From assembly GCA_007844125.1 (NCBI GenBank), contig CM017556.1, forward strand, positions 83,702,088 through 83,766,087: a DNA stretch of 64,000 nucleotides, read 5' to 3'. Shown in pieces: positions 6,157 to 45,148 of this stretch. A program made the translations under genes and the position numbers. This stretch comes from Sinonovacula constricta. Lineage: Eukaryota; Mollusca; Bivalvia; Cardiida; Solecurtidae. The notes beneath the pieces are model-generated. The model saw only the letters and a program-made list of their open reading frames with translations, ran no database searches and was not told the DNA's origin. The stretch's first letter is position 1, and each line of letters starts with the position of its first letter.

Positions 6157-6186
6157 GGGATTAATGTTAGTGGTATTTAAAATGGG

Positions 6187-7442
6187 TTATGTTGGAGCTT
6201 TAACTGGTGACCTTAATGCTTTGTCCTTGTCTGGTGGAGAATCTGTCTCCATCAGACAATCAAATCTATTGAGAGAGTTGGACCGGCCAACTCTCTTCTC
6301 CCGGGAATTAGGAGGATTAGGTCCTCTTGTTTTCCCGGAAGGGCTTGTAGTTTCTCTTGAAACTTTTGCCATTGCGGCAGCTTTTTTTCCTTCCTTCGTC
6401 TGCTTTGAAGTAGGCTCTAAAGGTTGGGTAGAAGCGGATTTGGTAGGTTGTGTAGAGGTAGAAGATTGTGTAGAAGTTGGTTTTGGTTGGGTAGTTTTTG
6501 TAATTCCAGAAGACTCTGTGTTTTTGAATTTTGTGGGAATTATTATTTTGTCAGAGACTTGGTCACCAGAGAGTATTTCATATTGAGTCGAATTGTCCTG
6601 GAAAACCGAAGTGTTTGATTTTGTAATTGCAGCGTAAGATGTTTTGGAAGAGACAGATTTCTGTTTCTCTTGCACTAATTTACGCGCTTCTGGAAATGAG
6701 ATGTTGAGGGTGTATTTTATTTTAAGCACCTCTTTCTCGAATTTCCAAGTTGGGCAATCTCTGGACCTACTTTCGTGAGGTCCGGAGCAATTTGGACACT
6801 TCGGTTCAGCTTCACACTTAAAGTTTGGGGTGTGACCGGGTTCACTGCATCGTCCGCAGATAATATCATTTGTACAATTAGACTCATGGTGACCAAATTT
6901 CTGACATTCAAAACAGCGTAATGGATTTGGAATGTAGACTTGAATTTTGACCAGAAGATAACCGATTTTGATTGTTGATGGAAGTTTTGGGTTGTTGAAA
7001 GTTAAAACTAATGTGTTGGTGGGAATCCTGCGGCCTTCCTTGGAGAAGGAAATCCTCCTGACACCACCTCCTCCTCCGAAAGTCCAGAAAGATCAGGGCA
7101 ACGGATGACACCTTTTGAAAAATTGAGGGAATTGTGTGGGAGAGTTTTGACTTTAAGTGAGCAAAATTCATTTAGTTTCAAAATTTTATCAGAAATAGGT
7201 TTTCTTTTAGTTTCAATAAGGAGGCAGTCATTTTTTATTTTCTTGACAGAGTCAACTGTTCCAATTATGCCTTTAATTGACTTTTCGATAACAAAAGGTG
7301 AAATTTTGGTGATTGGAGTTTTTTCGAGTGACTGGATGACAAGAAAACGAGGAAAATTTGAATTTGTTGATGCAGAGTCGGTATCAGAGTCTTCTGAAGA
7401 CATTGTTGGGATAGGGTCAAAGCATTTGCGTTTGCGATCCAT
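6187..7442 (-). pseudogene. ORF1 (gag-like, zinc knuckles) of LINE B, one frameshift
   Basis: Start MDRKRKCFDPIPTMSSEDSD at 7442. The N-terminal ~140 residues (acidic/Ser-rich head, then FLVIQSLEKTPITKISPF) are open to about 7060. A deletion of about 34 bp relative to copy F (at a GGAGG microhomology) then shifts the frame. The downstream frame contains three Cys/His knuckles (CFECQKFGHHESNC, CGRCSEPGH, CPNCSGPHESRSRDC) and a Ser/Thr/Pro/Lys-rich tail ending just before ORF2. ORF1 proteins of this kind coat the RNA template and have chaperone activity. The open frame 6187-6729 is the tail part only. Confidence 0.85.
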
Positions 7443-8037
7443 GAGAGTTTATTGTAATTATTCGGCATCCTGGCTCACCACCCACCGCGGAGCCCAACAA
7501 GGGGACGTCTTATGGGAGTGGATCTCCGACCTCCCAACGCCAGTGATACCAGGATGCGATACTCCGACATAAAATATACTCTAAAGCATAAAAAATGCCA
7601 GATTGATCCGTTAAGGGGGTGTCGACCGGCAACTGGGTTATAGTTAATAGGAGACAATTTAAGAAAAGGAATTTACGGAACACGGTATATTTGAAGAAGA
7701 AAAAGGAGAAGAGGAGTGGAAAGTCGGAGGCAAGAAAGTGAGACGAAAGGGAGTAAAAGCTAATCCAGCACCGGCCGAGGGGTTAGCCGATTGGGGATAC
7801 AGGACCAGCACCCCGCCCGTCTACCCCACAACTTAGGGCCAAAGTGGTGTGTTGGTCAGGGTCGACTTATGTGTCAATATCCTGACAAGCCAACAAAGAC
7901 CTCAACCACCAGGATCCCCTCGTCGTAGAGATACTGGGTCGCCACCCACGGCAAACAGGTGGGCTACCTTTGGAGGGTTCTTACCCCGCTACAGGTAGCG
8001 GCAGCCGGAGAATTCTATGCCCCTTCCGGCAGGGCCG
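7443..8037 (-). promoter_or_regulatory. 5' UTR of LINE B, likely internal promoter region
   Basis: 595 bp from the element's 5' end to the ORF1 start. It is conserved at the DNA level with the 5' UTRs of copies A, E, F and G even though the ORFs belong to two families. Landmarks are a GC-rich first 50 bp (GCCGGAGAATTCTA on the plus strand), a block with GGATCC, and a pyrimidine-rich tract on the sense strand. LINEs of this type usually promote from their own 5' end; no specific promoter motif could be proven here. Confidence 0.5.
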
Positions 8038-8283
8038 ACTATTAGATTTAAAATTAAACTTTTCCCTTTCGGCAGAGTGTTTAAAGGTTTGAAATTGAGG
8101 CGTGTAGTTAGCTGATGAGGAATTTTTGGCAACATTTTCAGCCAGTGTGTTCGAAATGTTTTGTTTATCTGTTATTACGGTGCGATTTGCTTTAAGGTGG
8201 TTAACAGCTGAATATGATGGTTTACCGCCAATCTTTTTAATAGCAGAACAAACATTTTTGATGTAAGTCTTGCCATTTATTTT

Positions 8284-9306
8284 TTAAACATACTTTTGCC
8301 AAGATGATCTTTTGGCATGTTTAATAGTCCGGCGACTTTGAGCCCGTTCTTTTTTAAGGTTATAAAGATTTGTATCGGTAGGTCGAACATTAAATTGCTT
8401 CAATGCCGCCCTACGTTTACGAATAGATTTTTTACACTCTTCATTAAACCAAGGCTTATTACGTTTTGATATATTCGAGGTCTTAGGTATACACCTTTCT
8501 GCAATATTGTGCAAAGTGTTTGAAAATACGACAATTTTGTCATCTACATTTTCTACTGAAGTTGGGACAAGTTCTGCAGAACAGAGTGCTGAGAACAGGT
8601 CCCAGTTTGCTCTGTCCATCTTCCAGCGAGGATTATCGTCGCCTTTTGGCGAAGTACAGTTTGTAAGGATGATATAAAAGTGATTACTTCCACAAAGGTC
8701 ATCGTGTACATCCCAAGTGTAGTCTAAATATACAGAGGGGTGACACAATGTTAAGTCTAACGATGAATAATGCCCAGTTGCGGGGTGCAAGTATGTTGGT
8801 CTTTTAGTATTGGCCAGACATATGTCATTATAGGCAATAAAGTTTTCTATCGTTTTGCCCATATTATTGAAGTCACAACATCCCCATAGCGGGTTATGAC
8901 CATTGAAGTCTCCGTCGAATATATATGGAGTAGGCAACTGGTTGATAAGATTATCTAAATCATCCTTAGATACATTTGAATTCGGTGGAAGATAGACAGA
9001 GCAAATAGTTACAACTCTATGTAGGGTTACACGAATAGCAACAGCTTGTATGTTTGTGTCAAGTTCGACTTGAGAGTGTGGCAATTTGGAGTTGACAATT
9101 ATTGTCGATCCTCCAGATGCCCTCTCGCAAGCTGTATGTATATGATTTTAACAATTATAACCCTTAAAATTTGATTTATCAGAGTCTTTAAGAAAGGTTT
9201 CCTGAAGACAAAGCACAGCAGGATTTAGTGTAGATAACAGAATGAGTATTTCATTGTAATTGGCCTTAAGACCTCGACAGTTCCACTGAATTATTCTATT
9301 ATTCAT
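8284..9306 (-). pseudogene. Endonuclease part of LINE copy A ORF2, broken
   Basis: The ORF2 start codon is at 9306 (MNNRIIQWNCRGL readable at DNA level), but stops interrupt it between 9085 and 9200. From 9084 to 8284 a 266-residue stretch is open. It encodes most of an AP-like endonuclease (VTICSVYLPPNS, FDGDFNGHNPLWGC, HPATGHYSSLDLTLCHP, DDLCGSNHF) and the basic linker KSIRKRRAALKQF. The motif reads FDGDFNG where other copies have LVGDFNG. Downstream, the RT region continues to 8046 in other frames and is then cut by LINE B. Confidence 0.8.
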
Positions 9307-14640: not shown

Positions 14641-15156
14641 AAATAAGCATTAATTAAAAAGTCTCTTTTCAGAGTTCTCTTAAAGCTTGTCAGTTTCGAA
14701 AGGGCCAACAGGAAGGCTGTTCCATAGCGTCGGGGCAGCGGAATAAAATGATCGCTCCCTGAAGCGTGACTTGGTCCTAGGTGTGACCAGGAGTCGTTGG
14801 ACAACGGAGCGAAGAGGTCTGCTCGATTGGGAAATATTCATAACATCTGGAATGTAGGCTGATGCAGTATCATTGATCACACGGAAACTGTGCACCAGAT
14901 CCTTGTAGTCGATTCGACTACTTACTGGTAACCAGTGTAAATCTACAAAAATTTAAGAAATGTGGTCAGACCGCTTAGCGCCGATGATAAGCTCAGCTGC
15001 CGAAATTTGAACTCTCTGTAAACAGTGGATGATGCTATTTGGAAGGCCAGTTAACATTGTATTACAATAGTCCACGCGCGAAATAATGTGACCATGAACC
15101 AGTGATTTTTGTGGACTTTCAGACAAGCAGCGTCTCAGGCAACTTATTTTCCTTAA
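14641..15156 (-). mobile_element. CR1/L2-like LINE, 3' half, split by the TTAA transposon
   Basis: Minus-strand remains of the C-terminal end of a reverse transcriptase: LRKISCLRRCLSESPQKSLV (spanning the insertion site), VDYCNTMLTGLP, DLHWLPVSSRIDYKDLV and FYSAAPTLWNSLP. This is the typical end of CR1/L2 ORF2, as also seen in the 46-49 kb element. Stops and a frameshift are present. The element stops at the TTAA at 15153-15156 and resumes at 28629. Reading across that junction gives a continuous LINE protein, so the two halves were once joined. Confidence 0.8.
15153..15156. repeat. TTAA target duplication, left
   Basis: TTAA directly precedes the left end of the 13.5-kb transposon. The other copy is at 28629-28632. 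The interrupted LINE frame is restored if one copy is kept. Confidence 0.8.
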
Positions 15157-15189
15157 CGGGTCGTGAAAGCGGTGAAATGATAAAATGCC
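15157..15189 (+). repeat. Left terminal inverted repeat of the 13.5-kb transposon
   Basis: Starts CGGGTCGTGAAAGCGGTG. It matches the left end of the 715-bp derivative and, imperfectly, the reverse complement of 28596-28628. Confidence 0.7.
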
Positions 15190-15481
15190 CCAAATTTTGA
15201 ATGCTAATAACTATGAAGTCTTTAGTCCGACTCTTCTAAAACTTTCCAAAATTATGTATACATTCTATAAGAACAGAATGGCAAAATATAAACGTGAAAA
15301 ATTACCTAGAAATACGTTTTCTTTTCTTAGAAATTTTTTTTCAGTCATTTTGTGGGGGCAAAAGTTCATCTTCACAGCAAAGCTTATATAAAACAACATT
15401 TAGCAGAATTATTAAATACACCCTAATGGAGGTAGTATGGAGCTTAAAATTTTGATTACCTTAACCGTGTTTGATAAATCT

Positions 15482-16261
15482 GACTTCAATAATTTGTTTA
15501 CGTCGAGCACATTTGACGCTATTTTGCACCATTGAAGGCCATCCACTTTGAAGCATGCCCCTGTACAATCGGTCCATGTATAAATTAATCTAACTACATA
15601 TTTTAAAGAAGTAGATATCCATCCATATAAATGCAGAGTGATGTGTTGAAATACAAAAGAAAAAGAGCCAAAATAGTTACTTTTTCAATCATACTTCTCT
15701 GAAAATTTCTTCCCACGGCCAGCTCTGTATTCATGCGCAGTTTCGAATTTAGTTTATTTAGTTTATTTGTAAGTCAAAAGTTATTTTTATTCTATATATA
15801 CAATATATCATATAAAAACACATTTTCAAAGTGTATTTGTCAAAAACTCACGCATTTGAGCAAAATTTAAACAATAAATAGTTCATGCGAAGTTACTTCC
15901 GGCATAAAGTATAGCTGACGGTAAACATGAAAGGAGGCTGAAAAAGCAACAATTATGTATTTAAAAGAACTTTAGGGGCTAAAGGTAAGTAAAATTATTT
16001 ATATTATGTAAACAATGTTCGTACTGTAACATTCTTTTTATTGATCATGGCCAAACTTGCATTGGTCATGCTCTTTGAAAATATTGGGCCTTCCAAATGC
16101 ACAATGTTATTGTTTACGATTTACATGGTCACTTCCGTCAAATATGTGTGTATGGTGAATTGGCTAGGACAATCATGAAAGTAAAAGTTTTTACAGTGGT
16201 GTAAATGAAATATGTATTTTACATGTTAATATCACCTTCATAATGTCATAATGCTTTCAAA
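15482..16261. other. Transposon 5' region upstream of the transposase
   Basis: Non-coding, AT-rich. It lies between the left 325-bp arm shared with the 715-bp derivative and the transposase start, so it should contain the transposase promoter. No clear motif is seen. Confidence 0.4.
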
Positions 16262-19200
16262 ATGGTGACTAAATCATTAAAATCACATTGGAAATATGGT
16301 GCCAAGTTTGGGAAACTTAAAGGTTGTGTTCGGAATAAAGTGAATAAAGTATTCAAACGATATTCGGTGAAGAGAATAAGCAATTTAAAATTGAAAATAA
16401 AGGTAGTTAAAAGGAGAAGTCGGCAATTCCCACGTCTTTCATGGGCTTCGAACAACACCAACATTTACACTGTGTCACAAAATTTTAATTCATTGAAATG
16501 TATCATCAAACGTGTGAAGAATGTGAACCTACATGGTTACCGCATGATTAACTTGAAGTCTCTGCAAACATTCATGAATAGTGTTATCTCTCATGCCAAA
16601 ACATGTGAATACGTTGATGAAACTACCATGGAGCCATTCTCGATTGTTAGAGAGGATCTGAAACAGGGTTTGGCTTCAACACTTTCTGGTGAGTGCAATG
16701 GGTGTAGAAAGTGTTTTCGATTTTGTACGAGTCCAAAGTTGAACAACAAAGGAACCATTATGCATGACATAAACGCTCGTGCTGTATGGGGAAGTGTTGC
16801 CACGGGTACTGGGGCATCACAGCTAGGTGAACTGATGGCAACCATGGATGCACCATCAATATCATCTCAAGCATTTACAGCCATGGAGAGTCGTATCGGA
16901 TCATGGTGGGAGGATGTGTCCTTAGAAGAAATGCTTGAAGCAGGTAAGCCAAACCTTTTGTTTTTATTTTACTTGTTGATACTGTGGTAGATAATAATTG
17001 TTTTTATATGATTGGGGAAACAGAATAATAAAAATATCCAGGTATTAAATCAATCATCCGATAAAAACCAGGATTGGCATTTAATAACCCGCCCAGGTTT
17101 TCCCGGGGGTAAAACGTGGGAAATATTTTTTTTCATTCAAAATCACTTATTTTATATTATATATGTTTTTAATTCAACTTTTATTAATAAGTATCCGCAA
17201 TAGTTAATATTAACTGTTAACATATGTGTCAGGGTTGGCGACAACATATGTGTCAGGGTTGGCGAAACTCATTGTCTGTATTGTCCCAAAGTAGGTGCAT
17301 ACAAGTGAAATTTATTCATTGTACAGACAAAATTTACTATACAGGCCTTATGGGCAAGTAAACAAAAATTATATTTTGCCACCCCTGTGTGTTATGTTTT
17401 TACTGTTGATAGAAGTCAGTCTCCAAGAATAATGATATAACCAGAAAAAGTATACATCTGACATGTTTATTCACAGTTTATATAACTTTGACATGTCTAG
17501 TGTCTAGTTAAGTTGATTTTTTATATATGGTCAACATTATCAAGAATTTCACCTAGTCTATCCCCACTCTATCTATTAGACTTACAAGGATGTTACAAAA
17601 CACCAACATTGCACATTTTTAAAATATTTTTTACTTGTCTATTATATAAATAAATTCTGTCTGCAATTTCATAGCAGTATTTAGTTGAAGTTGCATGTTG
17701 TCATTTATTAAATTTGGTCCATAACAACACAAATTTGAGTTTCTAAAAGCCACAGAACCTTTCAACAAACTAAGAGACCATGGTAGGACTTCTTAGTCTG
17801 TAAATCATATACCAGTAATTGAACATTACAATGCACAGCATGCTTGCACTTAACTGTTGACAGGAAAAGATGTTTTCACAGCTGATTGTTTAATAATATA
17901 TGACCTCAGACAGGTGTTAATCCTGTATTGACTACAGTCAGTGTATATTAAACCGTAAATGAAGCAAAAGTATTCTGAACAGGAAAGCTGAATGGACTTT
18001 CCATCAATGTTTCCTTAGAATATGGACATAACAGCATATTCAGGAATTTAATACATCACCAAGCAAGTTTGTAAATTGTTGATACTAGTTCAAAATAGAA
18101 GCTGTGACGTATTATCTTAGGCAGAGGGCATCATTCACGATGATCATAATAAGTGAATGTTCTTATTGTCCAGTATTACCCATTATTGCCCGGTATACAA
18201 TTACCCAGTTTTTCCCAGTATTCCCCGCTGGGCTGGGCAATACGACAAAACCTGGGCAATATGCCAACCCTGAAAACACGAAATGTCATTTTAGAATCAT
18301 AATGCAGGCTTCACATTAAGGCCTAAATAAACAACAACATATACTTGAAATAGGGTCGGGTTGTGCTATATCCAAGGCTGTCTAGGCAAAATGGTCATCT
18401 TACAAAATGCTACCAACAGACTACCAAAGAAACAAACTTTTATTTGAGTATGAAAGCACAAAATAACATATTAACAAGCTTATTTTACGATTTAGTTCTC
18501 CAGTCCAGACCATAACTCAAAAACTAAAGCATCTATAAACTTGAAACTTCATAGGTTGAGTTAGGAGAAGTGCAATGCATAAGAACCTTAAGTCTGTCTT
18601 GCTTAAATTTTGAGTTTTGCCCCTTTGTTTATATTTTTACTTAATTTTCGTCGGAAGCTTGGGTTGTAATGCAAAACTTTTGTAACAAAAGTCTGCATAC
18701 ATGGAACATCACCCATCTCCGTCTCTCCGACGGGTTCTTGTTTCATTTATTTGTACATGTTAGATCAATGCAATAAATGATGTTTTTAGCTCACCTGTCA
18801 CAAAGTGACAAGGTGAGCTTTTGTGACACTGTGTTGTCTGTCGTCCGTCTGTCCGCCCGTGTGTGCGTTAACTTTTTTCTTCAAACGACATCTCCTTCTA
18901 AACCACTTGACAGAATTTAACCAAACTTTACAGGAATGATCCTTGGGTGACCCTCTTTCAAAGTTGTTCAAATGGTTCCGGTCCATTGCATAATTAGGTC
19001 ACAGGAGCTAAAAATAGATTTTTAAAGTGAAATCTTAAAAATTTCATGAAACCGCGAGTACTGGAGCTTTGATATCTAGCATGGTGCATCAATTATAAAA
19101 ATTGGTCCTCTACTATAAACGTTCAAAAAATGCTCCTTGTTTTATACAGAACTATATAAAAAAACCAGACAAAGAACTTCACTATGTTTACTATGGCCTC

Positions 19201-21274
19201 AGGTGAGTGACCCAGGGCTCTATGGGCCCTCTTGTTTTAAAGACTAACATAATTAGCCTGCTAATCAATTTTGCAGTCAACATAAAACCGGGTCTGTCAC
19301 TTGTGACAGATTTTTTGTTAGAAAAACTTATCTGAGATTGACACATATTGGAACTTGTTAGTCACAATCAGTGTTAACTATTCTTAGAAATGCTTTATAA
19401 TTAATGGCATGACAGGTAAAATATGGTCAGAACTGGTAAAATTTAATATTATTCTGGAGTGGGATTGAAGAATGATAGTTGCATTTTATACAGGACTACA
19501 AATTAAATAACCCTGTTACCTTGTTTGATTTTAATTATCTGATTTTGAAGTCTGAACAATTTCTTATTGAAAATGACACACTAAATACATGTCTAATTCT
19601 TAATATTATTAATATTTATGTACATTAAATCATTGCAGAACAGAGAATTAGCATGAGGTATTATTTAAAGTAAATTAATGTTTAGAAACTTTCTATTGCC
19701 AGTGTTTATGGTAAAAAAGGGATTACATTTAATTTACGAAACTTATTACAATATTATGGTATTTTTTCTATATATCTTTAGGTGCTGAAGAAAGGCGAAT
19801 TGCTGTAGAGAAAGGGCAATTTCACCAAGGCGTTCCAGCAATTGCGGTCATTGCTGATGGAGGTTGGTCAAAAAGATCCCACAAGCACTCTTATGATGCC
19901 CTTGGAGGAGTTGGAATTATCATAGGAAAAGAAACAGGGAAGCTTTTACACATTGGCATAAAAAACAAATACTGTGTAATTTGTGAACGGAGCAGTAATG
20001 TTAATGAAAAACCACAGGAACATGAGTGTTTTAAAAACTGGGATGAAAGTTCGCAGAAAATGGAAAGCTCTAGCATAGTAGAAGGATTTCAGAAAGCTGA
20101 AAAAACACATGGTGTTCGGTATATGTGGTTGGTGGCAGATGGAGATTCCAGTGTGTATGCTCGGATTACAGAAGAGGTTGAGGTCTGGGGAAAAGATGTT
20201 AAAAAAAATGAATGTGCCAACCATGCCTGCAAGTGTTTAAGGTCAAACTTGGAAAAATTGGTTGAGGCCAACCCAGCGTACAAATGGAAAAATAAACTAA
20301 CAAAACAAAATAGAATAAGAATAGTCAGTGCAGTAAGATGTGCTATCAGGCTGAGATCTAAAGAAGAAGACAAAGCAAGTGCTGTTCAAAAACTAAGGAA
20401 AGACATAAACAATACTGTGCATCATGTATTTGGAAATCACAGTGGATGTTCTGACTTTTGCAAAGCTAAGACAAACACATGTTCCAATGACACAGCTGTT
20501 GAAACCCACCCCAATAACGATGAAACTCAACCAGCAGCAATCACTATATGTGATGATACAGCGTCATTCTGGTTAGAAGGGTCCTCTCTCACAGCCCAAG
20601 AGGAATCTAGGGGTCCATCCACATCAAATATACAAATGTTGGACAAAAACATGTTAACAGACATTTCTGTTTTACTGAACCGACTTGCAAACAAAGCAGA
20701 CAGGCTCATAGACAATACTACTACCAATTTGGCGGAAAATTGGATGAGTATCCGAATGAAGTTCGATGGTGGCAAAGTTAAGAACCTTTGTCAGAGGGGA
20801 TCATGGAGCACGCGTTGCCATGGAGCAGTACTCCGTAAAAACAAGGGTACACAGTGGTCACCATCAGTATGGGAAACCTGTACTGGAACAGAAGCAGGTG
20901 CTGACTTTAAGGCCCACTACTCCTCTCGTGACAGACATCACCAGCGCACGATCAATTGGAAAAATAAACCAATCCGAAATCAACGTAGATGGAAAAGAAA
21001 AATGAAGGCAACTACACAGGCAGCCTCAAAGAAGGCAGAGTATGGGCCTACAGCTGTAGACCAAGAAGCTGATGTAGATGAACAAACTCTGTCCAAGATG
21101 AAAGATCAGTTTATTGAATCACATATTAATATCTCAGAGGAAAGGATCAATGTCATAAACAATCAAACCACTGAACAAAGTTCATCTGAAGTATGGAAAA
21201 ATGAACGAAAGAAAAGGTTAACAGCATCAAATATTGGAATTATTATGAAAAGAAGGACAAAAACACCAAAATAG
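16262..21274 (+). CDS. Mutator-like DDE transposase, two exons (16262-16943, 19782-21274)
   Basis: Exon 1 ends GAAGCAG/GTAAGC. Exon 2 follows TATCTTTAG; the junction is phase 1 and keeps one frame of 724 codons. The N-terminus is very basic (KLKIKVVKRRSRQF; likely DNA-binding). A Cys-rich segment (CNGCRKCFRFC) and VWGSVATGTGASQLGELMAT then match the conserved N-terminal part of the Mutator-like transposase domain found in many bivalve proteins. The catalytic core is visible: IADGGWSKRSHKHSYDA (D253), LVADGDSSVYAR (D347/D349), the CANH motif (C372-H375) characteristic of several DDE superfamilies, and TNLAENWMSIRMKF (E546). An insertion with Cys pairs lies between CANH and E. The last 30 residues (VWKNERKKRLTASNIGII) begin a YqaJ-type nuclease domain, where a 1-nt loss in an A run at 21268-21271 causes the stop. 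The transposase core itself has no lesion. Its role is cut-and-paste of the surrounding element. Confidence 0.82.
16944..19781 (+). other. Transposase intron, 2,838 bp
   Basis: GTAAGC...TTTAG ends, phase 1. It contains a 24-bp direct duplication at about 17219-17266 (TATGTGTCAGGGTTGGCG core), an AT-rich middle, and the interspersed repeat at 18787-19236. Open frames inside it are short and unrelated to known families. Confidence 0.65.
18787..19236. repeat. Mollusc-type interspersed repeat with a 5' hairpin
   Basis: Starts AGCTCACCTGTCAC and within 30 bp has the inverse TGACAAGGTGAGCT, giving a stable hairpin. A (TCYG)-rich tract follows, and it ends in a GGTGAGTGACCC...GGGCCCTCTTGTTTT block. 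I recall this arrangement as very common in bivalve and other mollusc introns. It lies inside the transposase intron, so it was gained by the transposon. Confidence 0.6.
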
Positions 21275-22010
21275 TGTCCACCTTCCTACATTCCTCATTT
21301 CAAGGCAATGCAAACACGCTAAATGGCATAAAGAAAGAGCGAACAACGAAACGGGAATATGTGTTAAAGAAAGCCGAAGAAGGCGAAAATGTAGAAATAA
21401 GAGAGTCAGGCCTAGTGGTTTGCAAAGAAAACAAGTATCTTGGGGCTTTTCGTGGCGATCGTATAGTTTTAGATTATTTAGTACTTCGCTTGTGAGAAAA
21501 ACACAACCAGCTTCGACCTTTACTATTTAATGACTACTGACGTTATAATAACAACATTCATAAAAAATGACGTAACGAAAACGTACACAATCGCGGCGAC
21601 GTCGTGCCAAATAATTGTTCACGACAGGGCTAGTCCAGACGGAATTGTTTACAGCAACTGTGCTGTTAAACAAAAATGTAAATTTAAGTGAAAGCGCATT
21701 GAAAGACAAAGGTTTCTGTTTGAAAATTGAAAAGGGCCAACTTTCTTTGAAAAGAAACCACATCTACTACTACCAGTGCCAGTCACTACTGAATATCTGT
21801 GATTTTCCATGGTTAGACTTTGTTGTGCGTTGTGAGAACCTATATCAACTCCATATTGAACGCATTTATAAGGACACTGAGGAATTTAACTCGTGGTTGC
21901 CAAAGTTGAAAGCCTTTTATTTCAATGTCCTTCTCCCAGAACTGGCTTGTCCAAGATATGGGAAAGTACCGGGTATTCGTGAACCTGGTGTGTGGGTAAG
22001 GTTGTTATAA
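21190..22010 (+). pseudogene. YqaJ-like nuclease domain (transposase C-terminus), broken
   Basis: Continuation of the transposase protein in several frames: VWKNERKKRLTASNIG at the end of exon 2, VSTFLHSSFQGNANTLNGIK (21274-21447 frame), the SPDGIVYSN motif at 21632-21660, and HIYYYQCQSLLNI ... LKAFYFNVLLPELACP in the 21615-22010 frame. These match the order of a lambda-exonuclease/YqaJ fold, whose SPDG and EIKCP-like motifs carry metal ligands. Lesions are a 1-nt loss at ~21270, a 179-bp insertion between YLGA and SPDG (21448-21626), and a further indel near 21665 around the expected EIKCP motif. The nuclease is therefore dead in this copy while the transposase core is intact. Confidence 0.68.
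21448..21626. mobile_element. 179-bp MITE-like insertion in the YqaJ domain
   Basis: Inserted exactly between the codons for YLGA and SPDG, with GGGCT duplicated at 21443-21447 and 21627-21631. The ends TTTCGTGGCG and (reverse complement) TGTCGTGAAC form a short imperfect inverted repeat. It has no coding capacity. The family is not recognised. Confidence 0.55.
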
Positions 22011-22016
22011 ATACAG

Positions 22017-23447
22017 TAGATTTATTATTTTAATATCTTTCATGTGTCATATCTTCTAAAAGACCTTAGATATCTTACCCGGAATTATTGTATCCTACAT
22101 CTTTCTCTACCTAGCTGACCTTCAGCAAAACAAAAAGCTATGTCATATGACCAGAAATCATTTCAATGTGTAGTTAAACCCAAACAAACAAAAACAAATC
22201 ATATTGCATAAATGTGTATGTATAATTTTAATATGTGAAGTCTTAGCATACTGTACACTATGTTATGACTCGGTCTTCAAATTAATGTTTTCAGCCCAAT
22301 AGCCCGAATACTTAAATATGTTTAGTAAAATGTCATGGATTTTTCACTAGCCAAACTATACAAATTTTAAAATTCCTACAAACCCGTACAGGTTTTACTT
22401 TCCCCAGGCTTCTGGCTAGTGGGTTAGCATGAAGACTGTTATGGTTGTTGACATGTACTGTCTTTTGAGTAAAGGTAGTCTTGATATATTTTGGAAGCAA
22501 ATTATACAATGACATGATATGAAACTAGCACCAAGTGGTTCATTACTCATAACTGGTAATTCTAAATGCAACACCATAGATGCTCTATTGCATCAATGAG
22601 AGCAGGACTATATTATCAGTGAATTTATTATATTGAATGATCCAAAAGCTTATAAGTTACATACATACTAGGTTTTTAGTCCCCTACCAGTTTCACCAGA
22701 GGGGACTATAGGTTTGCCCTCCGTCTGTCTGTCTGTCCGTCCGTCATTAGTCCATCCGTCCGGTTCATTTGTAGGGGACTCATGTATTGCTTGCGATTCT
22801 ATCATAGCCTTGTTACATATAATTATTTATATTTATATTTATATTAATTTTAAATATTAAAAATAATGTAAACATTAAATATACAATTTTCTTCGGAGAT
22901 TTACAAGAAAATTGATGGGTAAAAATGAGGTTATAACTTTATTTAATATTTGTTATCAGAAAATGTTTTAATGCGTCTTTTAAAAATGCCAGTGCCAAAA
23001 CATAACCCATACTTAATACTCTTAATTTCAATTAAATACATTGTTATGAATATTATACATCTGTAATATTATTGTTATAAACAAGCATGTCCAATATTCT
23101 ATTTTCTAGTACTCTGAAGATGTATCGAAGAACCCAACCGCAAGAAGACACCCAAGTTTCAAGAAAAATGTTTGAAGAAACATGAAATATAACCTTCAGA
23201 ACGCATGGAGATACAGCGACAGCGCCTAGCCATACATGCAAGATATACCCGGTAGACATAGAACGTACCATCCACATCCTCAAAAAAGGACATTTCAAGC
23301 ATGCCTATATACCACACCGCACAATGCATGACACTCTTCAGATTCTGAAAATTTGCATATTACCTTAAAGGGAGGTAATTGGAACGGGAGACTACACTGA
23401 ATTGAAGTATGAAACTGAAACATGAAACTGAAGTATGAAGAAAAATG
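22017..23447. other. Transposon cargo, non-coding part 1
   Basis: AT-rich sequence without a supported gene. Contains the fold-back repeat at 22678-22820. Downstream of the transposase stop there are AATAAA-like signals in the AT-rich stretch, none distinctive. Confidence 0.4.
22678..22820. repeat. Fold-back repeat, AGTCCCCTACC...GTAGGGGACT (copy 1)
   Basis: Inverted ends AGTCCCCTACC and GTAGGGGACT enclose a (TCYG)n tract. The motif GAGGGGACTATAGGTTTGCC lies just inside the left end. A conserved 40-bp extension (TGTATTGCTTGCGAT...) follows. Two further copies lie at 25021 and 25961, all in the same orientation and inside the transposon. Confidence 0.65.
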
Positions 23448-23845
23448 TAAACAAAGAATACAAGTGTCATTTGTGGACCAAGTATATACAGCCCGGCTTG
23501 TGTTATAAGCGTTCAACAGATACCAGTGTCATTTCTGGATAGTGCTACCTACAGAGAGTAAACGAAGTATATTCAGGCCAGTTTGTGTTATAAGCGTTCG
23601 ACAGATACCAGTGTCATTTCTGGAACGTGCTACCTACAGAGGGTAAACGAAGTATATTCAGGCCAGTTTGTGTTATAAGCCTTCGACAGATACCAGTGTC
23701 ATTTCTGGAACGTGCTACCTACAGAGAGTAAACGAAGTATATTCAGGACAGCTTGAGTTCGTGATCGACAGATACCAGTGTCATTCGTGACTATTGCTAC
23801 CTATAGAGGGTAAACCAAGTCTATTCAGACTTGCTTGTAATTGTG
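23448..23845. repeat. Minisatellite, ~85-bp unit, about 4 copies
   Basis: Tandem units starting CAGATACCAGTGTCATT at 23517, 23602, 23687 and 23769 (spacing 85, 85, 82), with a partial unit before. Each unit carries GTGCTACCTACAGAG and AAGTATATTCAGG. Sequence after the array diverges. Confidence 0.85.
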
Positions 23846-25020
23846 ACTGACTTTAGTATAAGTTGTGAGTGGTATAGAGTGAGGATTGTGTGTAATATTT
23901 TTAGCAGTAGTATAGCAACTTTGTTTAGTAAAAAGTAGACTTCTGTATTATTTTGAAATTTGGGTGTTGATATGTTTACTTTTGCTGCTTTTCTCAAAAC
24001 ATTTTATTGTTATAAGCATTTGTGTAAATATTTCGTAATAGATAAACCTTTTTATATCTACTTTTAGAAAATAAGTATAAATACATACATGCACTATTTC
24101 AACTGTTAATTTACTGGAAAAAAAACAATAACATGGAATTCTATTTGTTAGTCCGAAAGTTGTGTCTAAACTAATAACACAAAAAACAGCGACAAAACCT
24201 GAGCTTATAAATTCTTTAAATTTAATACCTTTGTACAGTAATGAATAACACTCTGAAAATTAAATATTTATTTAATTAAAAATTACATGTAACTTGCATG
24301 TAGCTACAAGAAAATCACACATGTTCAGGTTTGCATATTTTTGGTGATTTTTTTATTTATGCAATTCAAAGAAAAGATATGCAAACAATGTTGCATTTGT
24401 TACATACATTTTGGTAACAAAATAAGTTTGTAATTGGTCTTAATTAAATATGTCGATTTAATTTTAGTTGAAACACAATATTATAATAGCATGTTGATTC
24501 ATCGGTTTGTACTACTTTGAGTTGTGTGTTTGAATTTGGATCACACGAGGCTAAAGGTCGAGCATAATGCAATTTCACACACACAACGTGAAGCGATACA
24601 AACCGACCGGTCAACATGTTAATGTAATTATGCTTTTATTATATACCTTTATGATTATGAAAAAGTTTTGTACATAAAATAGTCCAAGCAAAACTTAATT
24701 AATGGGGAATGAAAACATGAATTGATTATTGGCGGAAAAGTGTATTTCACGCTGGTTTCCGTCTTTTATAACCAAAGTGTCGTGACATTTAGTAAGCTGG
24801 GATAAAATGACATCAGAGAAAATCATCCGCGAAATAACTTTGTGACATAATATTTCCCTTGCTTTCTCAGCGTGACTGGCTAAAATGTCATTTTGTTATT
24901 GTTTTTAACAAGAAGTAAAGAGAAAATTCAATATATTTTTTTTGAAAGACTGATATTTCTTTCTTGCTTTCGAGTGAGAGTGGGAAATACCCGTGAAAGA
25001 AACCTTATGATCAGGTTATT
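23846..25020. other. Transposon cargo, non-coding part 2
   Basis: AT-rich sequence with no supported gene. A palindromic pair flanks 24489-24620: GATTCATCGGTTTGTA... and ...TACAAACCGACCGGT, with TTATAATAGCATGTTGA and its near inverse, suggesting another small inverted-repeat element of about 160 bp. Confidence 0.4.
24475..24640. mobile_element. Possible small inverted-repeat (MITE-like) element
   Basis: The left side reads TAATAGCATGTTGATTCATC, then GGTTTGTACTACTTTGAG. The right side contains TACAAACCGACCGGTCAAC followed by ATGTTAATGTAATTATG. These are imperfect inverses, and the middle also has CACACAACGTGAAGC opposite the left inner arm. No coding capacity and no target duplication was established. 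Confidence 0.4.
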
Positions 25021-25160
25021 AGTCCCCTACCGGTTTCACAGGAGGGGACTATAGGTTTGCCCTCCGTCTGTCCGTCCGTCCGTCTGTCCGTCATTCCGTC
25101 CGTCCGTCTGCTTTACCGGTAGGGGACTCCTGTATTTCTTGCGATACTATCTAAGTCTTG
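25021..25160. repeat. Fold-back repeat, AGTCCCCTACCGGT...ACCGGTAGGGGACT (copy 2)
   Basis: Best-preserved copy: perfect 14-bp inverted ends at 25021-25034 and 25115-25128, a (TCYG)n core, and the conserved extension CTGTATTTCTTGCGATACTA. Same family as 22678 and 25961. Confidence 0.7.
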
Positions 25161-25253
25161 TTATTATGAAGTTGCAAATTATACCTCCATTTTATATTGA
25201 TTAAATAGTTTTATCGCAGAACCTTACCCATGTTTTCAAACATTATTTTGATT

Positions 25254-25330
25254 ATAATTATACCACCACCAGTGGTGGGGGCTATACTGGAATTACCTTG
25301 TCCGTCCGTCGGTCCGTCGCGGGACAAATG
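25254..25330. repeat. Hairpin plus (TCCG)n interspersed repeat
   Basis: CCACCACCAGTGGTGGGGG forms a hairpin and is followed within 50 bp by TCCGTCCGTCGGTCCGTCG. The layout resembles the fold-back repeats nearby (hairpin, then TCCG tract), but the sequence is different. Confidence 0.45.
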
Positions 25331-25954
25331 TAAACTACTAAGAAATGTGCATGTGGTGGGGGTATTCATCACATTAAGTGATAGTTCTAGTTTAATATTG
25401 TAATAGTCTGTGCCCAGGCTTTTTTTAAGTAAGGCGCATCCGAAATGATTTTATGTTTGAATTATGTACATTTATAAAATGAGGCTTACCTACACTAGAT
25501 AATAGTCTGTCTGCATCTTCTCTTAGTTAAAATATAGATTACTTTTGATAGAATACAGACAGCCAGGTGAAAAGCTTGCTTAATATAATATGTGGGTGTG
25601 ATTTAAATCGGCAGCATCTGCCTGCTGATTTCCAGGATTTTAATGGAGAGCGCCATGACTACTTTTTAAAGCTGGCACATACTTATACACAGCTATGTGT
25701 TTTAGACTAAATTGCATTATTCGTTGTCAAAACTGCCTGCCTTATAAAGGAAATGTTGTTTAAGTAATTAATGATATTGTAATGTATATGATTTTTTGAT
25801 TTTGTTCTTGCTGTAACTAATTAATTCAGCAGCATGTACTATTTTTACTTGCGTGTGTTTTAGAATGCTAGGGACATGCTGGCACATAGTTTTTATGTAT
25901 CGTGTAAATCTAAGATGGTTTCTTTCGATATACTATGATTTTAAGAATGCGCTT
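25331..25954. other. Transposon cargo, non-coding part 3
   Basis: AT-rich sequence between two fold-back repeats. No supported gene. Confidence 0.4.
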
Positions 25955-25960
25955 TATTAG

Positions 25961-26117
25961 TCCCCAACCAGTGTTTCACCGGAGGGGACTATAGGTTTGC
26001 CCTATGTCTGTCTGACGTCCGTCCATCCGCAAATTGGCTTTCAGTCTTTATTAGGGGGGTTTAGTTTTGGGATTCACCGCTAGGGGACTCCTGTATTGCT
26101 TGCGATACTATTAAAGC
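25961..26117. repeat. Fold-back repeat, degenerate copy 3
   Basis: AGTCCCCAACC on the left and TAGGGGACT on the right (ends near 26089), with GAGGGGACTATAGGTTTGCCC inside and the TGTATTGCTTGCGATACTA extension. Weaker arms and a partly lost TCCG core compared with copy 2. Confidence 0.6.
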
Positions 26118-26787
26118 CTCGATATTTATATCTTGCTGCGTTGCATAAATGTTTTAAAAAATGTGTTACATTTATTGTTAAGCTTTGACCGCCATTATAT
26201 GTAAACACACTAACTTCTGTAAACAAACAAACAAATGTCAATCAGAGCCTTACCGCTGTGTTTTTTAAAATTCCTTAAGGTTGTTAGTTAATAGATTATA
26301 TTTAATTAGAATATAAGTAATACATCTTCTTTATTTTAGTTAATAGATTATATAATACATCTTCTTTATTAATAAACACAAATTTAAGTTTGAGGGAGAG
26401 ATAAACTTGACCAATTCTCTTTTATGAGAAATATTTAACAGATCTTACGGTAATTAATGATACAGTTTGAATTGCTAGTTTAAGTAATTTTGAGTAATAA
26501 TATTCAAATTTACTCAAGTACTTATTGGTCATTGGCAAGCAACTTGTCACGACTGGTGCTATTATCATTTTATTGGCAGTTTTTGTTGTAGATTTATATG
26601 ACCTTCTTTTGCATGTAGTGCTATACGATATTAAATATTGGTGCAATCTTTAAGCACACCAATTCATTATACCATAAATAAAATGTGTTAACTGTTACCG
26701 CGTTGTTAGTTGTTTCTTATTCTTTGTTTTCTGGAAAGCTAATTACTTAATCGCGAAGGTATATTTCACTCACTCACATTTAGACAT
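26118..26787. other. Transposon cargo, non-coding part 4
   Basis: AT-rich with a short direct duplication (TTAATAGATTATAT... at about 26288 and 26340). No supported gene; the 26422-26646 open frame looks like chance. Confidence 0.4.
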
Positions 26788-27205
26788 AGGTACAACTCTG
26801 ATACAGGGCCCAGTCAACCGACACAGATAAGATTCAAACCATGTACCTGATTTGTACTTCATTTATAATTATTAGTACACGCATTCACTAAATTTTAGAT
26901 CTAGGTACAAATGTGATGCAGGGCTCAACCAATCAACAAAGATAATATTGAGATCCAAACCCTGTACCACATTTGCACTTTATTCATTTTTTTACAAGCA
27001 CTATAAACTAGGCACAAGTCTGATTCAGGACCCTGCCAACAGACATAGAAAGATAATAGATTCCTGAACCGGGTTTGTACCTTATTTTTAAGTACATCCC
27101 CCCCCCCAACACACACACACTTGTAGGTACAAGTCGGATACAGGGCCCAACCAACCAACATCAATATAGAGACTTGAAACCCTGCATCAGGCCTGTGCTT
27201 TATGC
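26788..27205. repeat. Degenerate tandem repeat, ~110-bp unit, 4 copies
   Basis: Units begin TAGGTACAA at about 26788, 26902, 27009 and 27124. Each continues with a CAGGGCCC-like block, a CAACCAAC-like block, an ACCCTGTACC-like block and TTTGTACTTTATT. The 27100 region includes a C-run/CA-run. Divergence is higher than in the 85-bp array. Confidence 0.7.
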
Positions 27206-27295
27206 ATAATATATTTACACCGTTGGTTAAATATTAATTGTAAGTCCGCCCTAAAACAGCGACCGCCCTTCTCTGACAAAGATTAAAAAGTTTAT

Positions 27296-27980
27296 TTATT
27301 TATTTGGATTTAACGGCACACCGACACCTAACAGGTCACACGGCGCCGAATACAAAGTTAAGTGTGAATAAAGCGTAATCAGGTTAAAACCAAACTACGC
27401 ATGTAAAATATAGAAAAATAATAAAACTATCAGGTAAAAAAATAAATAACAATTGAAAACAGGTCAACACACAAAACGGTTTAAAAAGTATGACGATTGG
27501 TTAATAAACAGTTTAAAAATTTATAACTTACTAAGAATACCAATGTCGTTCAAGAAGCAAACCAGTTTAAAATCCGACACTGTCCTAAATAGTTCGTACA
27601 TGTTATGGACATTAAAATATTTCGACCGTATGTGGTCTGTGTCGATACACTGTAATAAAATATGGTTGACTGTCAGTGGTTCCTGGCAAGGAACACATAC
27701 AGGTTGAACTTCTCTTTTCAAGAGAATGAGTCAATCTAGTATGTCCAATGCGACAGCGGGTAAGAGCTACGTCTTCTCGTCGACTTTCTCTGCAAGCAGA
27801 GACATTGGCACCGACGTTAGGTTTAATTACGTGTAATTTGTTACAAACAATACTGTCCCAACTTGTTTGCCACTTGGTTAAAATATGTCTGTAAATAAGT
27901 GGTTTAAAATCAGTGTGTGGGATGCAAAGATCTGTCTCAGTGAGGGCTGAGGCAGATTTTGCACCCCTGTCAGCATCTTC
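27296..27980 (-). mobile_element. LINE copy C (family beta), 5'-truncated
   Basis: Minus-strand fragment beginning at the conserved 3' tail (TTAACGGCACACCGACAC on the plus strand) and extending into the RNase H domain, which it leaves at about 27980. Two overlapping frames (27521-27721 and 27612-28013) encode the C-terminal RNase H end and the Cys/His tail, separated by a small deletion near 27725. It sits inside the 13.5-kb transposon and therefore inserted after, or travelled with, it. Confidence 0.8.
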
Positions 27981-28240
27981 AAAACTTAGATTATTTACTT
28001 TGTTTAAGTTCATGTGGGTTCAAAATAACGAAAATACTGTAATTATGTATGTATATAAAAATATTTTACCAATATTACCTCCCTTTATGAATAAAAAAAA
28101 TATTAAAGAAAAAATATTAAGTTCTCTCTTATTTTAATTATATTTAATGCAAAACATAATAATGTAAAGAATATAACACATGTATTTTTTTCTTTTTCAT
28201 AAATGAAAATAAAACAATATTTTCAGTGGTCACAATTGCA

Positions 28241-28628
28241 CACCATAGTTTTCAATGTCAAAAAAGTAGTCCCTCTTTGAAACAGAAAGTACATGTGTTT
28301 TCACTTGATTTTTAAAATGTGTTTTTATGCATGTTCTAAACACTCACTATGAAAATTAAGTGAGCTTCTACGTTGAAAATTGTTTGAACAAACTTATGTT
28401 ACAATAAAATTGTGTCTATAAACATATTTCCTGGGCTAAACTTGTCATAACAAAAAATGGTAGTTTTATCAATATTCATCAAATTTCACCTTTTTGTGAA
28501 GTAATCTTAATAAATTATGATATAATATGTTATAACATTGGTTTTGATGTATGGCATGAATATTTATATGAAAAAATAATGAACTTTGAAAATTAAAATT
28601 TTATGAAATGTGCCGCTTAAGCGACCCC
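28241..28628 (+). repeat. Right 388-bp arm and terminal inverted repeat of the 13.5-kb transposon
   Basis: This arm, ending GCTTAAGCGACCCC before TTAA, aligns along its full 388 bp with 44369-44756 of the 715-bp derivative. The last ~33 bp are the right terminal inverted repeat. No coding frame is seen. Confidence 0.82.
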
Positions 28629-29390
28629 TTAAATGCATGAAGCATGGCCGTGCAAGTAATTTAAAATGGTGATCTATGGACATTGTATAGTCAAACACAA
28701 CACCAATATTTCTTACAGATTCACTGGATTTGCGAACCTGCCATTGATTGTGATAGCAATATCGAATATGTCCGCTGATGACCTCTAAGACGCAAAAGCA
28801 ACACTTCGGTTTTATCGCTATTGAGCTTGAGAACTTTGGTATCCATCCATGTGCGGATGTCCTCCGGACAGGCTTCTAAGCGCTGACTGCTTGTTCGATA
28901 TTCGCAACATATTTGCGCTTAAATGAGACATCCAATGGTGTATCGTCAGCATACATATGATAGTCCAGGCAATGTTGTCTGATCAGATCACCAAGAGTTA
29001 AGGCCCCAGGACAGACCCCTGGGGTACACCAAATTTGAGCTTATGGGGCTTTAAGCAGTTGCCTGATAAATACACTGATTGATGGCGATTACTAAGGTAC
29101 AAAGCGAACCACTCCAAGGCTACACCGGAAATACCGTAGCCTAATCTTAGGCGTTCAATAAGTGTCTTGTGGTCCAAATTATCGAAGGCTGATAAGTCGA
29201 ACATATACAAAACAGCAGCATCACACCGATCCAATGATTTTAATATATCAGACTGAATGCGAAGGAGTGCCGTTTCAGTCGAACGGAACTTGGTGTGCGC
29301 ACTCTGATATTGTTCAGAGAGTGCATTGGTATCCAAAGGTTTGCATATATCTAATACATGCAACGACGTCTTAGTCCTCTTCCGGGGAAA
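28629..29390 (-). mobile_element. CR1/L2-like LINE, 5' half of the split copy
   Basis: Continues the element of 14641-15156. The frame 28998-29363 gives the RT core on the minus strand: SEQYQSAHTKFRSTETALLR, FDLSAFDNLDHKTLIERL and KFGVPQGSVLGP. A YADD catalytic motif follows at about 28941-28955 in another frame. The first 4 bp are the second TTAA. The 5' side fades near 29390, so the LINE was already 5'-truncated before the transposon inserted. Confidence 0.78.
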
Positions 29391-33698: not shown

Positions 33699-34389
33699 AT
33701 GATAAATAATAGACTCGTTTGGTATCTTAAGTCAAATAATTTACTCACAGAATTTCAAAGTGGGTTTAGAAACCAACTAAGTACACTCGATCATCTCGTT
33801 CGATTTGAAACTTTTATTAGAGATGCCTTTACCAAGAAAGAACACCTAGTAGCGCTGTTCTTTGATCTTGCAAAGGCATACGATACTACATGAAAAACAT
33901 GGGATTTTAAAAGATTTAGGTGACCTTGGTCTCAAGGGTCGTTTACCCACATTTATTAACAGTTTTCTTTCTGACAGAAATTTTCAAGTTAAAATTGGGT
34001 CTACTTTGTCTTCTGTTCATTAACAGGAACAAGGTGTCCCTCAGGGTAGTATATTGTCAGTTACTCTTTTTAACATCAAAATAAATAATATTGTATAAAC
34101 TCTAAATAATGGAGTCGATTGTTCACTGTATGACGATTCGCTCCAAAAATATGAACACAATTGAAATGCAATTACAACAATGCCTTAACAAACTATAAAC
34201 TTGGAGTAACAATGGTTTTAAATTTTCACCCACCAAAACAAACTGCGTACATTTCTGTTATTTCTTTATAACATTCGTATTCCTGTCGTCAAGGAAACGA
34301 AATTTCTTGGTGTCATATTTGACAGCAAATTATCTTTTATACCACATATTAAATATGTAAAATCTAAATGTCTTAAATCTCTTAACCTG
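33699..34389 (+). pseudogene. LINE D reverse transcriptase, N-terminal part, broken
   Basis: The frame 33699-33893 gives NRLVWYLKSNNLLTEFQSGF and FFDLAKAYDTT, followed by a stop. The QGVPQGS region at 34030 is in another frame, and the YVDD catalytic segment at about 34128 is partly deleted (SLYDDSLQK-like). A stretch near 34255 (the CQKRTLHNDPE region) is also lost. It cannot be active. Confidence 0.75.
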
Positions 34390-35223
34390 TTGAAATTTTT
34401 ATCCCATACCGACTGGGGAGCTGATAGAAAAGTTCTATTGCAACTGTATAGATCACTAGTAAGATCGAAATTAGATTATGGTAGCATTGTTTACGGCTTT
34501 GCCAGGAGATCATATCTCCAGATGCTTGACGTTGTCCACAACCAGGGACACCGTCTGTTGCTTGGAGCTTTCAGGACCTCTCCTGTAGAGAGCCTTTACG
34601 TTGAAGCTAATGAGTCATTATACCTTAGACGAGAGAAACGTGCGCTTCAGTTTATAACAAAAGTGAAATCTAACCCTAAAAATCCAGCACATAGTGTTAT
34701 CTTTAATCCGAAATATGAACACTTGTATGAGCGTAAACCAAAGGCAAATAAGCCGTTTGATTTACAAATACTAGAAATTATACACTCATCACAACTGAAT
34801 TTAAATCAAATATTAAAAGAAAATAATGTTTTAGAATTTCCACCATGGCAATTGAAAACTCCCGACGTCGATCTATCTCTCAGTATAAATACTAAATCAA
34901 AAACAAACCCTCTCGTACTACGCTCAAGTTTTATCGAACTGCGCGACAAGAAATATTCCAACTACGTCGAAATATATACCGATGGCTTAAAAGCAGATTC
35001 ATATGTCGGCTGTGCTTCCGTAAGCAAAATTCATTGTTTAAAACAAAAATTACCCCCCGATTCGTCCATTTTTACAGCCGAAATTCAGGCTGTTAATCTT
35101 TCTCTTGACTTTATTTCTGATCATCATAACGATACATTTGTAATATTTACTGACTCTTTGCTGTCGCATTGGACATACCAGATTAACTCATACATACCTT
35201 CTAAAAAGAGAAGTTCAACCTGA
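34390..35223 (+). pseudogene. LINE D RT thumb and start of RNase H
   Basis: 277 open codons: the RT thumb (SHTDWGADRKVLLQLYRSLV, SKLDYGSIVYGFARR), the linker and the first half of RNase H (VEIYTDGLKADSYVG, FTAEIQAVNL). RNase H is cut after FTDSL by an internal deletion, so the last catalytic Asp is missing. The stretch AHSVIFNPKYEHLYERKPKA is intact here and shows where B lost one base. Confidence 0.78.
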
Positions 35224-40852: not shown

Positions 40853-40882
40853 AGACATTTAACTATCATTTAATATAATCCC

Positions 40883-43524: not shown

Positions 43525-45148
43525 ATCAAATAATAGAAAATCTATCTCTCAATATAAATACTAAATCAAAAACAGACCCTCTCGTACTACGCTCAAATTT
43601 TATCGAACTGCGCGACAAGAAATACTGCAAATATCGAAATATATACTGATGGCTCAAAAGCAGATTCATATGTCGGCTGTGCTTCCGTAAGCAAAATTCA
43701 TTGTTTAAAACAAAAATTACCCCCGAATCGTCCATTTTTACAGCCCAAATTCAGGCTGTTAATCTTTCTCTTGACTTTATTTCTGATCATCATGGCGATA
43801 AATTTGTAATATTTACTGACTCTTTGCCGGTATTACAGTCTATTAAAAACCTCAACTTTTCAAACCCGCACATTAGAGATATACTTTTGAAACTTGGTGA
43901 ACTTTCTCTTAATAAGAATATTGTTTTCTGTTGGCTACCTAGTCATGTAGGCATCCGAGGCAACGAGGATGCAGATAAGAGTGCAAAATCTGCCTCAGCC
44001 CTTACTGAGACAGATGTTTGCATCCCCCACACAGATTTTAACGGGTCGTGAAAGCGGTGAAATGATAAAATGCCCCAAATTTTGAATGCTCATAACTATG
44101 AAGTCTTTTGTCCGACTCTTCCAAAACTTTCCAAAATTATGTATACATTCTATAAGAACAGAATGGCAAAATATAAACGTGAAAAATTACCTAGAAATAC
44201 GTTTTCTTTTCTTAGAAATTTTTTTTCAGTCATTTTGTGGGGGCAAAAGTTCATCTTCACAGCAAAGCTTATATAAAACAACATTTAGCAGAATTATTAA
44301 ATACACCCTAATGGAGGTAGTATGGAGCTTAAAATTTTGATTACCTTAACCGTGTTTGATAAATCTATCACCATAGTTTTCAATGTCAAAAAAGTAGTCC
44401 CTCTTTGAAACAGAAAGTACATGTGTTTTCACTTGATTTTTAAAGTGTGTTTTTATGCATGTTCTAAACACTCACTATGAAAATTAAGTGAGCTTCTACG
44501 TTGAAAATTGTTTGAACAAACTTATGTTACAATAAAATTGTGTCTATAAACATATTTTCTGGGCTAAACTGCTCATAACAAAAAATGGTAGTTTTATCAA
44601 TATTCATCAAATTTCACTTTTTTGTGAAGTAATCTTAATAAATTATGATATAATATGTTATAACATTGGTTTTGATGTATGGCATGAATATTTATATGAA
44701 AAAATAATGAACTTTGAAAATTAAAATTTTATGAAATGTGCCGCTTAAGCGACCCCTTAAACCACTTATCAATCGGTATATTTTAACCAAATGGCAAACA
44801 ATTTGGGACAATACTGTTTATAACAAATTACACGCCATTAAATCTAACGTCGGTGCCAATATCTCTACTTGCAGAGAAAGTAGGCGGGAAGACGTAGCTC
44901 TTATCCGCTGTCGCATTGGACATACCAGATTAACTCATGCATACCTTCTAAAAAGAGAAGTTCAACCTGAATGTGTTCCTTGTCAGGAACCTCTTACAGT
45001 TAATCATATTTTACTACATTGTATTGACACAGATCATATTCGATCTAAATATTTTAATGTCAATAATATACACGAACTATTTAAGACGGTATCCGATGCT
45101 AAACTTGTTTGCTTCCTAACCGAGATTGTTGTTCTTAGTAAGTTATAA
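43525..45148 (+). pseudogene. RNase H end of LINE F ORF2, split by the 715-bp insertion
   Basis: A deletion joins the linker region to IYTDGSKADSYVG at about 43530-43650. The frame 43701-44041 gives FTAQIQAVNL (catalytic Glu changed to Gln), FTDSLPVLQSI and GNEDADKSAKSASALTETDV, then the insertion. Downstream, 44757-45148 continues PLINRYILTKWQTIW and the Cys/His tail ECVPCQEPLTVNHILLHC. The insertion point is a TTAA in the codons between TDF and KPL. Confidence 0.8.
44042..44756 (+). mobile_element. 715-bp internally deleted derivative of the 13.5-kb transposon
   Basis: Flanked by TTAA at 44038-44041 and 44757-44760, within the RNase H region of LINE F. Bases 44042-44366 correspond to 15157-15481 (325 bp each) and bases 44369-44756 to 28241-28628 (388 bp each), with a 2-bp join. 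It encodes nothing and must be moved in trans. High identity over both arms suggests it and the large element are of similar age. Confidence 0.9.

Follow-up and report, generated by a model that had tools for sequence, protein, structure and literature searches.

A probable young KolobokE-type DNA transposon family encoding a transposase-nuclease fusion in the bivalve Sinonovacula constricta

Results

The window, a 64,000-nucleotide stretch of the Sinonovacula constricta genome (assembly GCA_007844125.1, contig CM017556.1; C2:83702088-83766087 in the contig numbering used here), was analysed together with the source genome (1.22 Gb, 177 contigs). It contains a defective copy of a DNA transposon, most probably of the KolobokE type, at 15157..28628 on the forward strand. 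The element is bordered by two copies of its TTAA target site at 15153..15156 and 28629..28632, and it splits the frame of a long interspersed nuclear element (LINE), whose downstream part lies at 14953..15152 and whose upstream part, with the reverse transcriptase, lies at 28633..29390, both on the reverse strand. TTAA at both ends and flanks that are halves of one LINE protein had been claimed in the original prediction, made from the letters of the window alone, and both claims were borne out: when the flanks were joined via a single TTAA, one uninterrupted frame was obtained (...FMHLRKISCLRRCL...).

The unoccupied sites suggested as a check in that prediction were also found. The joined 29-base LINE flank had 48 matches in the genome at 1-3 mismatches, and its reversed control had none. 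A single TTAA was present at the insertion point in 37 of these related sites, and 11 matches were without TTAA itself at this point; nine of the 48 sit within one tandem stretch on C12. Because the LINE frame is restored by joining and 37 of the 48 flank matches carry TTAA, the insertion of the window copy and its target-site duplication are well supported as real.

The element termini are CGGGTCGtgaAAGCGG on the left and GGGGTCGcttAAGCGG on the right (reverse strand). They are the outer parts of imperfect inverted repeats at 15157..15188 (forward strand, beginning with CG) and 28597..28628 (reverse strand, beginning with GGGGTCG), and 12 of their first 16 bases match. The imperfect inverted termini that had been predicted are thus present and unconvincing on their own: among 119,457 TTAA pairs in the window, 38, with that of the element included, had a terminal match of at least 12/16, and the inverted repeat taken alone was therefore dropped as proof. 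A first, loose terminal pattern was likewise uninformative (97/101 matches against 215/179 in the reversed control). The exact left terminus occurred 141 times in the genome, with TTAA before it in 140 cases, which answers the proposed check for TTAA at every copy; the exact right terminus occurred 126 times.

The element contains a predicted gene of two exons on the forward strand. Exon 1 (16262..16943), with a putative start codon and splice site, encodes the N-terminal part of the protein and the first third of the PF20700 domain (E 1.5e-19 in Pfam for the window copy). It is probably followed by an intron at 16944..19781, with a GCAG/GTAAGC donor at 16943/16944 and with exon 2 beginning after TTTAG at 19781. 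Exon 2 (19782..22010) encodes the DDE core, a linker and a nuclease domain of the YqaJ/lambda-exonuclease type. Its first part, 19782..20455, matched PF20700, the Kolobok DDE core, with an E value of 2.8e-56, and the YqaJ domain (PF09588), interrupted in the window copy, was mapped to 21200..21790 from a sister copy in which PF20700 and YqaJ are found in one open frame. The original proposal of a Kolobok-like transposase that carries an exonuclease-like domain is thus right for the family. The 724-aa protein described at the same time is close to exon 2 alone; with exon 1 spliced to it, a product of approximately 923 aa is predicted.

Within the intron, at approximately 17515-17838, the sequence of copies c013, c014 and c016 is replaced by a shorter one of another kind, and the window copy agrees with the remaining long copies that extend into this region. 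A difference private to the window copy was accordingly dropped, the alternative form being that of the three copies.

The window copy has no open frame for the transposase-nuclease protein. Its nuclease part is disrupted by a frameshift and by an insertion of approximately 150 bp near 21447..21659, which is missing from all 8 of the other long copies in which the region is retained. In addition, a nested LINE fragment from the RNase H region at 27294..27979 (reverse strand), missing from all 8 of the other long copies that extend this far, makes up approximately 0.7 kb of the copy. The span of 13.5 kb given in the original prediction is thus real, and it is that of a copy defective in YqaJ and enlarged by the nested fragment.

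The right arm (22011..28240, forward strand) has no recognised gene. When 5.2 kb of it were used as a query (best 40 of 1,185 candidates scored), the stretch was specific to the family save for a dispersed repeat of approximately 95 bp; the nested LINE fragment is the other foreign part of the arm. The longest right-arm frames of c013, 60-91 aa and not searched against protein families, did not give a recognisable second gene. Many of these frames are uninterrupted in five further copies as well, but given the close similarity of the copies this carries little weight. The dispersed repeat lies at 25016-25110 and has many copies elsewhere at 83-91% identity. An 85-bp tandem repeat at 23477-23841 was listed with 4 copies, and their number seems to vary among copies of the element.

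To describe the family, the left 748 bp were compared with the genome, and the best 40 of 152 candidates were scored. Eleven of them, including the window copy, matched over the full length at 98-100% identity, and the remaining 29 matched the first 329 bases only. The 10 other long copies, for each of which 20 kb were fetched, were mostly 97-99% identical by segment. In 8 of the 10 (all except c010 and c019) the right end was reached within the fetched sequence, and TTAA was present on both sides in all 8. Both exons were open in three of the 11 long copies (c013, c014 and c016), which are 12.4-12.7 kb long, whereas in c011 and c015 internal deletions had reduced the element to approximately 6.5 kb. 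Copies c018 and c019 have a common left flank, and loci L020 and L021 have both flanks in common; these pairs were dropped as independent insertions since such flank sharing indicates duplicated stretches. Over the left 1.5 kb, the 11 long copies were 98.4-99.7% identical, so the burst of the family looks recent.

Exact left and right ends were paired on contigs C1-C12, which hold 91 of the left and 87 of the right ends. A partner was found for 78 of the 91 left ends, and 13 left and 9 right ends had none. The paired spans were bimodal: 72 of the 78 were 710-726 bp in length, and the other six were 6,454, 12,395, 12,722, 13,480, 14,074 and 14,242 bp. Unlinked ends at random lengths, named in the original prediction as an outcome that would speak against a transposon, were thus not what was observed. 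The short class is a miniature inverted-repeat transposable element (MITE), which shares its termini with the long copies, outnumbers them, and is a deletion derivative of the long element: a common internal junction was present in the 9 copies read, with one nearby base differing in one of them. The MITE copies were 98.9-100% identical at the loci compared, L022 (one of nine), which has no exact right end, being omitted. One copy of 723 bp, TTAA to TTAA, lies in the window itself at 44038..44760 (forward strand), within another LINE, and the unoccupied form of this site is seen in related LINE copies. The sole exact left terminus without a preceding TTAA is at C1:7336236-7336257; because a right terminus is approximately 0.6 kb distant, it is regarded as a shortened or rearranged MITE.

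The conserved residues of the transposase were examined in 31 aligned sequences. By our reading, the DDE triad consists of D33 (conserved in at least 90%), D127 and E326, with a CxxH motif, C152-A-N-H155, after the second aspartate. Two zinc fingers were invariant: one between CxxH and the glutamate (H222/H227, C230, C234) and one of the CCHC type after the first aspartate (C72-x2-C75 ... H88-x-C90).

PF20700 is named 'Mutator-like transposase' in Pfam, and a true Mutator-like element (MULE) sitting at TTAA by chance had to be weighed. The CxxH motif fits it as well, since C/DxxH is common to MuDR, hAT, P, Kolobok and Dada in the classification of Kojima and Bao (2022; PMC9587614). The two fingers, in contrast, follow the pattern published for Kolobok, in which a zinc finger precedes the glutamate. 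Target duplications of MULE/MuDR elements are 8-10 bp in length. Here, a 4-bp TTAA was found at 140 of 141 ends, and it is single at related unoccupied sites, so this explanation is very improbable. The name is Pfam's label and does not indicate MULE kinship; beyond it, nothing was left of the Mutator relation that had been proposed.

A piggyBac element, or a sister lineage using TTAA, would account for the target duplication and for a left end that starts with a pyrimidine. No piggyBac domain was found by Pfam in protein P0001 or in the five window open reading frames (ORFs) scanned, the right end begins with 5'-GG on its own strand, and the core carries CxxH and Kolobok-type zinc fingers. 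Such an origin is therefore scarcely credible. The same may be said of ISL2EU, another eukaryotic transposon kind with YqaJ, of the PHIS superfamily. YqaJ is characteristic of its second ORF, but as described in PMC4482050 this ORF is separate, the transposase is of the Harbinger type, and the target duplication is AT; in the S. constricta family, a single frame encodes both YqaJ and the transposase, the duplication is TTAA, and neither AT duplications nor a Harbinger-type transposase were seen.

The features listed for KolobokE agree with those of the family in most respects. KolobokE has been described as a DDE transposase fused to a nuclease of the lambda-exonuclease fold (PMC9587614), and the family shares with this description the TTAA duplication, the CxxH DDE core, the finger before the glutamate, the CCHC finger after the first aspartate and, following the transposase, a lambda-exonuclease-like domain of the PD-(D/E)XK type. 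According to the same source, the finger before the glutamate varies among Kolobok elements at three of four positions, and the second CCHC finger is also found in KolobokP, D and 5. The right terminus agrees with the Kolobok YY-3' (5'-RR on its own strand): of the 8 other long copies whose right end was found, 7 have CCCC/TTAA, as does the window copy, and the eighth, c018, has ACCC/TTAA and thus keeps YY-3'.

Two published traits were not found. The left terminus is 5'-CG and not the 5'-RR described for Kolobok; the first base was C in 100 of the 100 left ends listed, and A in copy c011. Furthermore, Pfam scans gave no THAP match, with E values of up to 0.1 considered for exon 1 and up to 1 for exon 2. 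THAP is 'usually' present in Kolobok according to PMC6004289, and it is not among the defining traits in PMC9587614. With these exceptions, the assignment to KolobokE is based on the protein features and on TTAA. Published KolobokE was compared by description only, and against that description the family is characterised by its length of 12.4-12.7 kb and a right arm of approximately 6 kb in which no gene was recognised.

The departure from the RR rule could also be explained by a Kolobok lineage that gained YqaJ independently and is sister to published KolobokE. The order of domains and the second zinc finger equal those published for KolobokE, and proteins of like layout are found in mussels, oysters, scallops and limpets, which makes an independent gain unlikely. 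Among the matches listed in the protein search (7,996 candidates scored), the closest named proteins were from mussels and oysters. Horizontal transfer was dropped as a candidate because no close relative was found, the best identity being 58% among the 120 of 439 matches listed. It may be concluded, with a probability of about nine in ten, that the element belongs to a young KolobokE-type DNA transposon family, a new member of a known Kolobok lineage.

Other known Kolobok systems show partial likeness. KolobokP, which is reported to be rich in bivalves, has the Kolobok DDE core with equal positions of the two zinc fingers, but its termini are described as long direct repeats and its nuclease as a separate one of the His-Me type (PMC9587614). 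The ends of the S. constricta family are inverted, and no direct repeat joining both ends was present among the 20 of 37 window repeat families shown. The Xenopus Kolobok (XKol)/T2-MITE system is similar in its TTAA, its large full-length copies and its abundant short non-autonomous relatives (PMC6004289). XKol transposases are described there as having THAP and H2CH, unlike the present family with no THAP match, and the word 'exonuclease' was absent from the text of that paper. Because Xenopus Kolobok copies of 6.8-13.9 kb have been published (PMC6004289, Table 5), the size of the present element, called very large in the original prediction, is not exceptional. Kolobok itself is established in bivalves, with 43 curated consensus elements (PMC10294476).

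Further PF20700 and YqaJ families of the genome were surveyed. Among the matches listed in a protein search with the transposase part (63 of 522 candidates scored), only the family's own copies were found, and a search with PF20700 (114 of 441 scored) revealed several further families. One of them has a 676-aa frame and forms tandem arrays with a period of 4,495-4,497 bp (C4:74211666-74226299, C19:9046860-9056999, C3:6871522-6877163 and locus L049). A single copy, L049, was read over 659 aa of its frame; a D / DGDS / DPIH / CxxC / CEA pattern was recognised in it by our reading, PF20700 was matched with an E value of 3.9e-76, and YqaJ was absent. Since its unit length and tandem form agree with published KolobokP, this family looks KolobokP-like. 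BLASTP of P0001 against the L049 protein gave no match, and only the profile comparison of L049 with the element family did (hhalign E 2e-6, probability 89.5). Because the KolobokP-looking L049 matches both PF20700 and the family profile, PF20700 looks like a Kolobok transposase rather than that of a MULE.

Three additional families were noted. A 666-aa frame with a PF20700 match recurs every 10.1 kb or so in a tandem array at C5:64397602-64418961. A 698-aa frame with a PF20700 match from position 139 and a similar exon layout is found at C3:28393729 and 12 other listed places. A 571-aa frame matching the YqaJ part only, at approximately 34% identity, is present at 13 listed places (e.g., C1:45877028, C3:191804 and C8:14941326) and possibly belongs to a different type of transposon that has an ORF for YqaJ, as ISL2EU does.

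The window is dense in LINEs; LINE-like long frames were identified by eye at 2477-9147, 34222-35223, 39860-41965 and 51982-52914.

Discussion

The element is real, well delimited and young, and it is ordinary in kind. From its anatomy, the following mode of action may be proposed. The two-exon gene would yield one protein of approximately 923 aa, whose RNase-H-fold DDE core would bind the termini and carry out cut-and-paste transposition into TTAA, and the same transposase would move the MITE in trans. Less certainly, the C-terminal domain of the lambda-exonuclease fold might resect DNA where the element leaves or enters and thereby influence how the break is mended, for instance by favouring gap repair templated by the sister copy. 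A role of the exonuclease in transposition is a conjecture; if true, it would help to explain how one transposase gene could drive a fast burst of 12-kb elements and MITEs. That the family is still mobile, that a lambda-type 5'-3' exonuclease resects donor or target ends, and that PF20700 as a whole is a misnamed Kolobok transposase are, taken together, tentative and rather doubtful propositions.

Within the collection of papers searched, none was found that pairs a Kolobok or Mutator-like transposase with YqaJ, and none that names PF20700. Bivalve proteins with this domain arrangement go by the names 'uncharacterized', 'YqaJ viral recombinase' or 'Mutator-like', and papers on bivalve genomes have included YqaJ genes among endogenous viral elements or recombinases (PMC7826175, PMC10225492). 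Because the S. constricta gene is tied to exact ends, a TTAA duplication, unoccupied sites and a MITE, it can now be asked of such bivalve genes whether they encode Kolobok transposases. Enzyme and donor for probing a transposase-fused exonuclease are naturally provided by the young open-frame copies and by the 723-bp MITE, respectively. The family thus offers precisely defined ends and a system in which a transposase-exonuclease fusion can be tested, and it suggests that the Pfam family PF20700 is misnamed.
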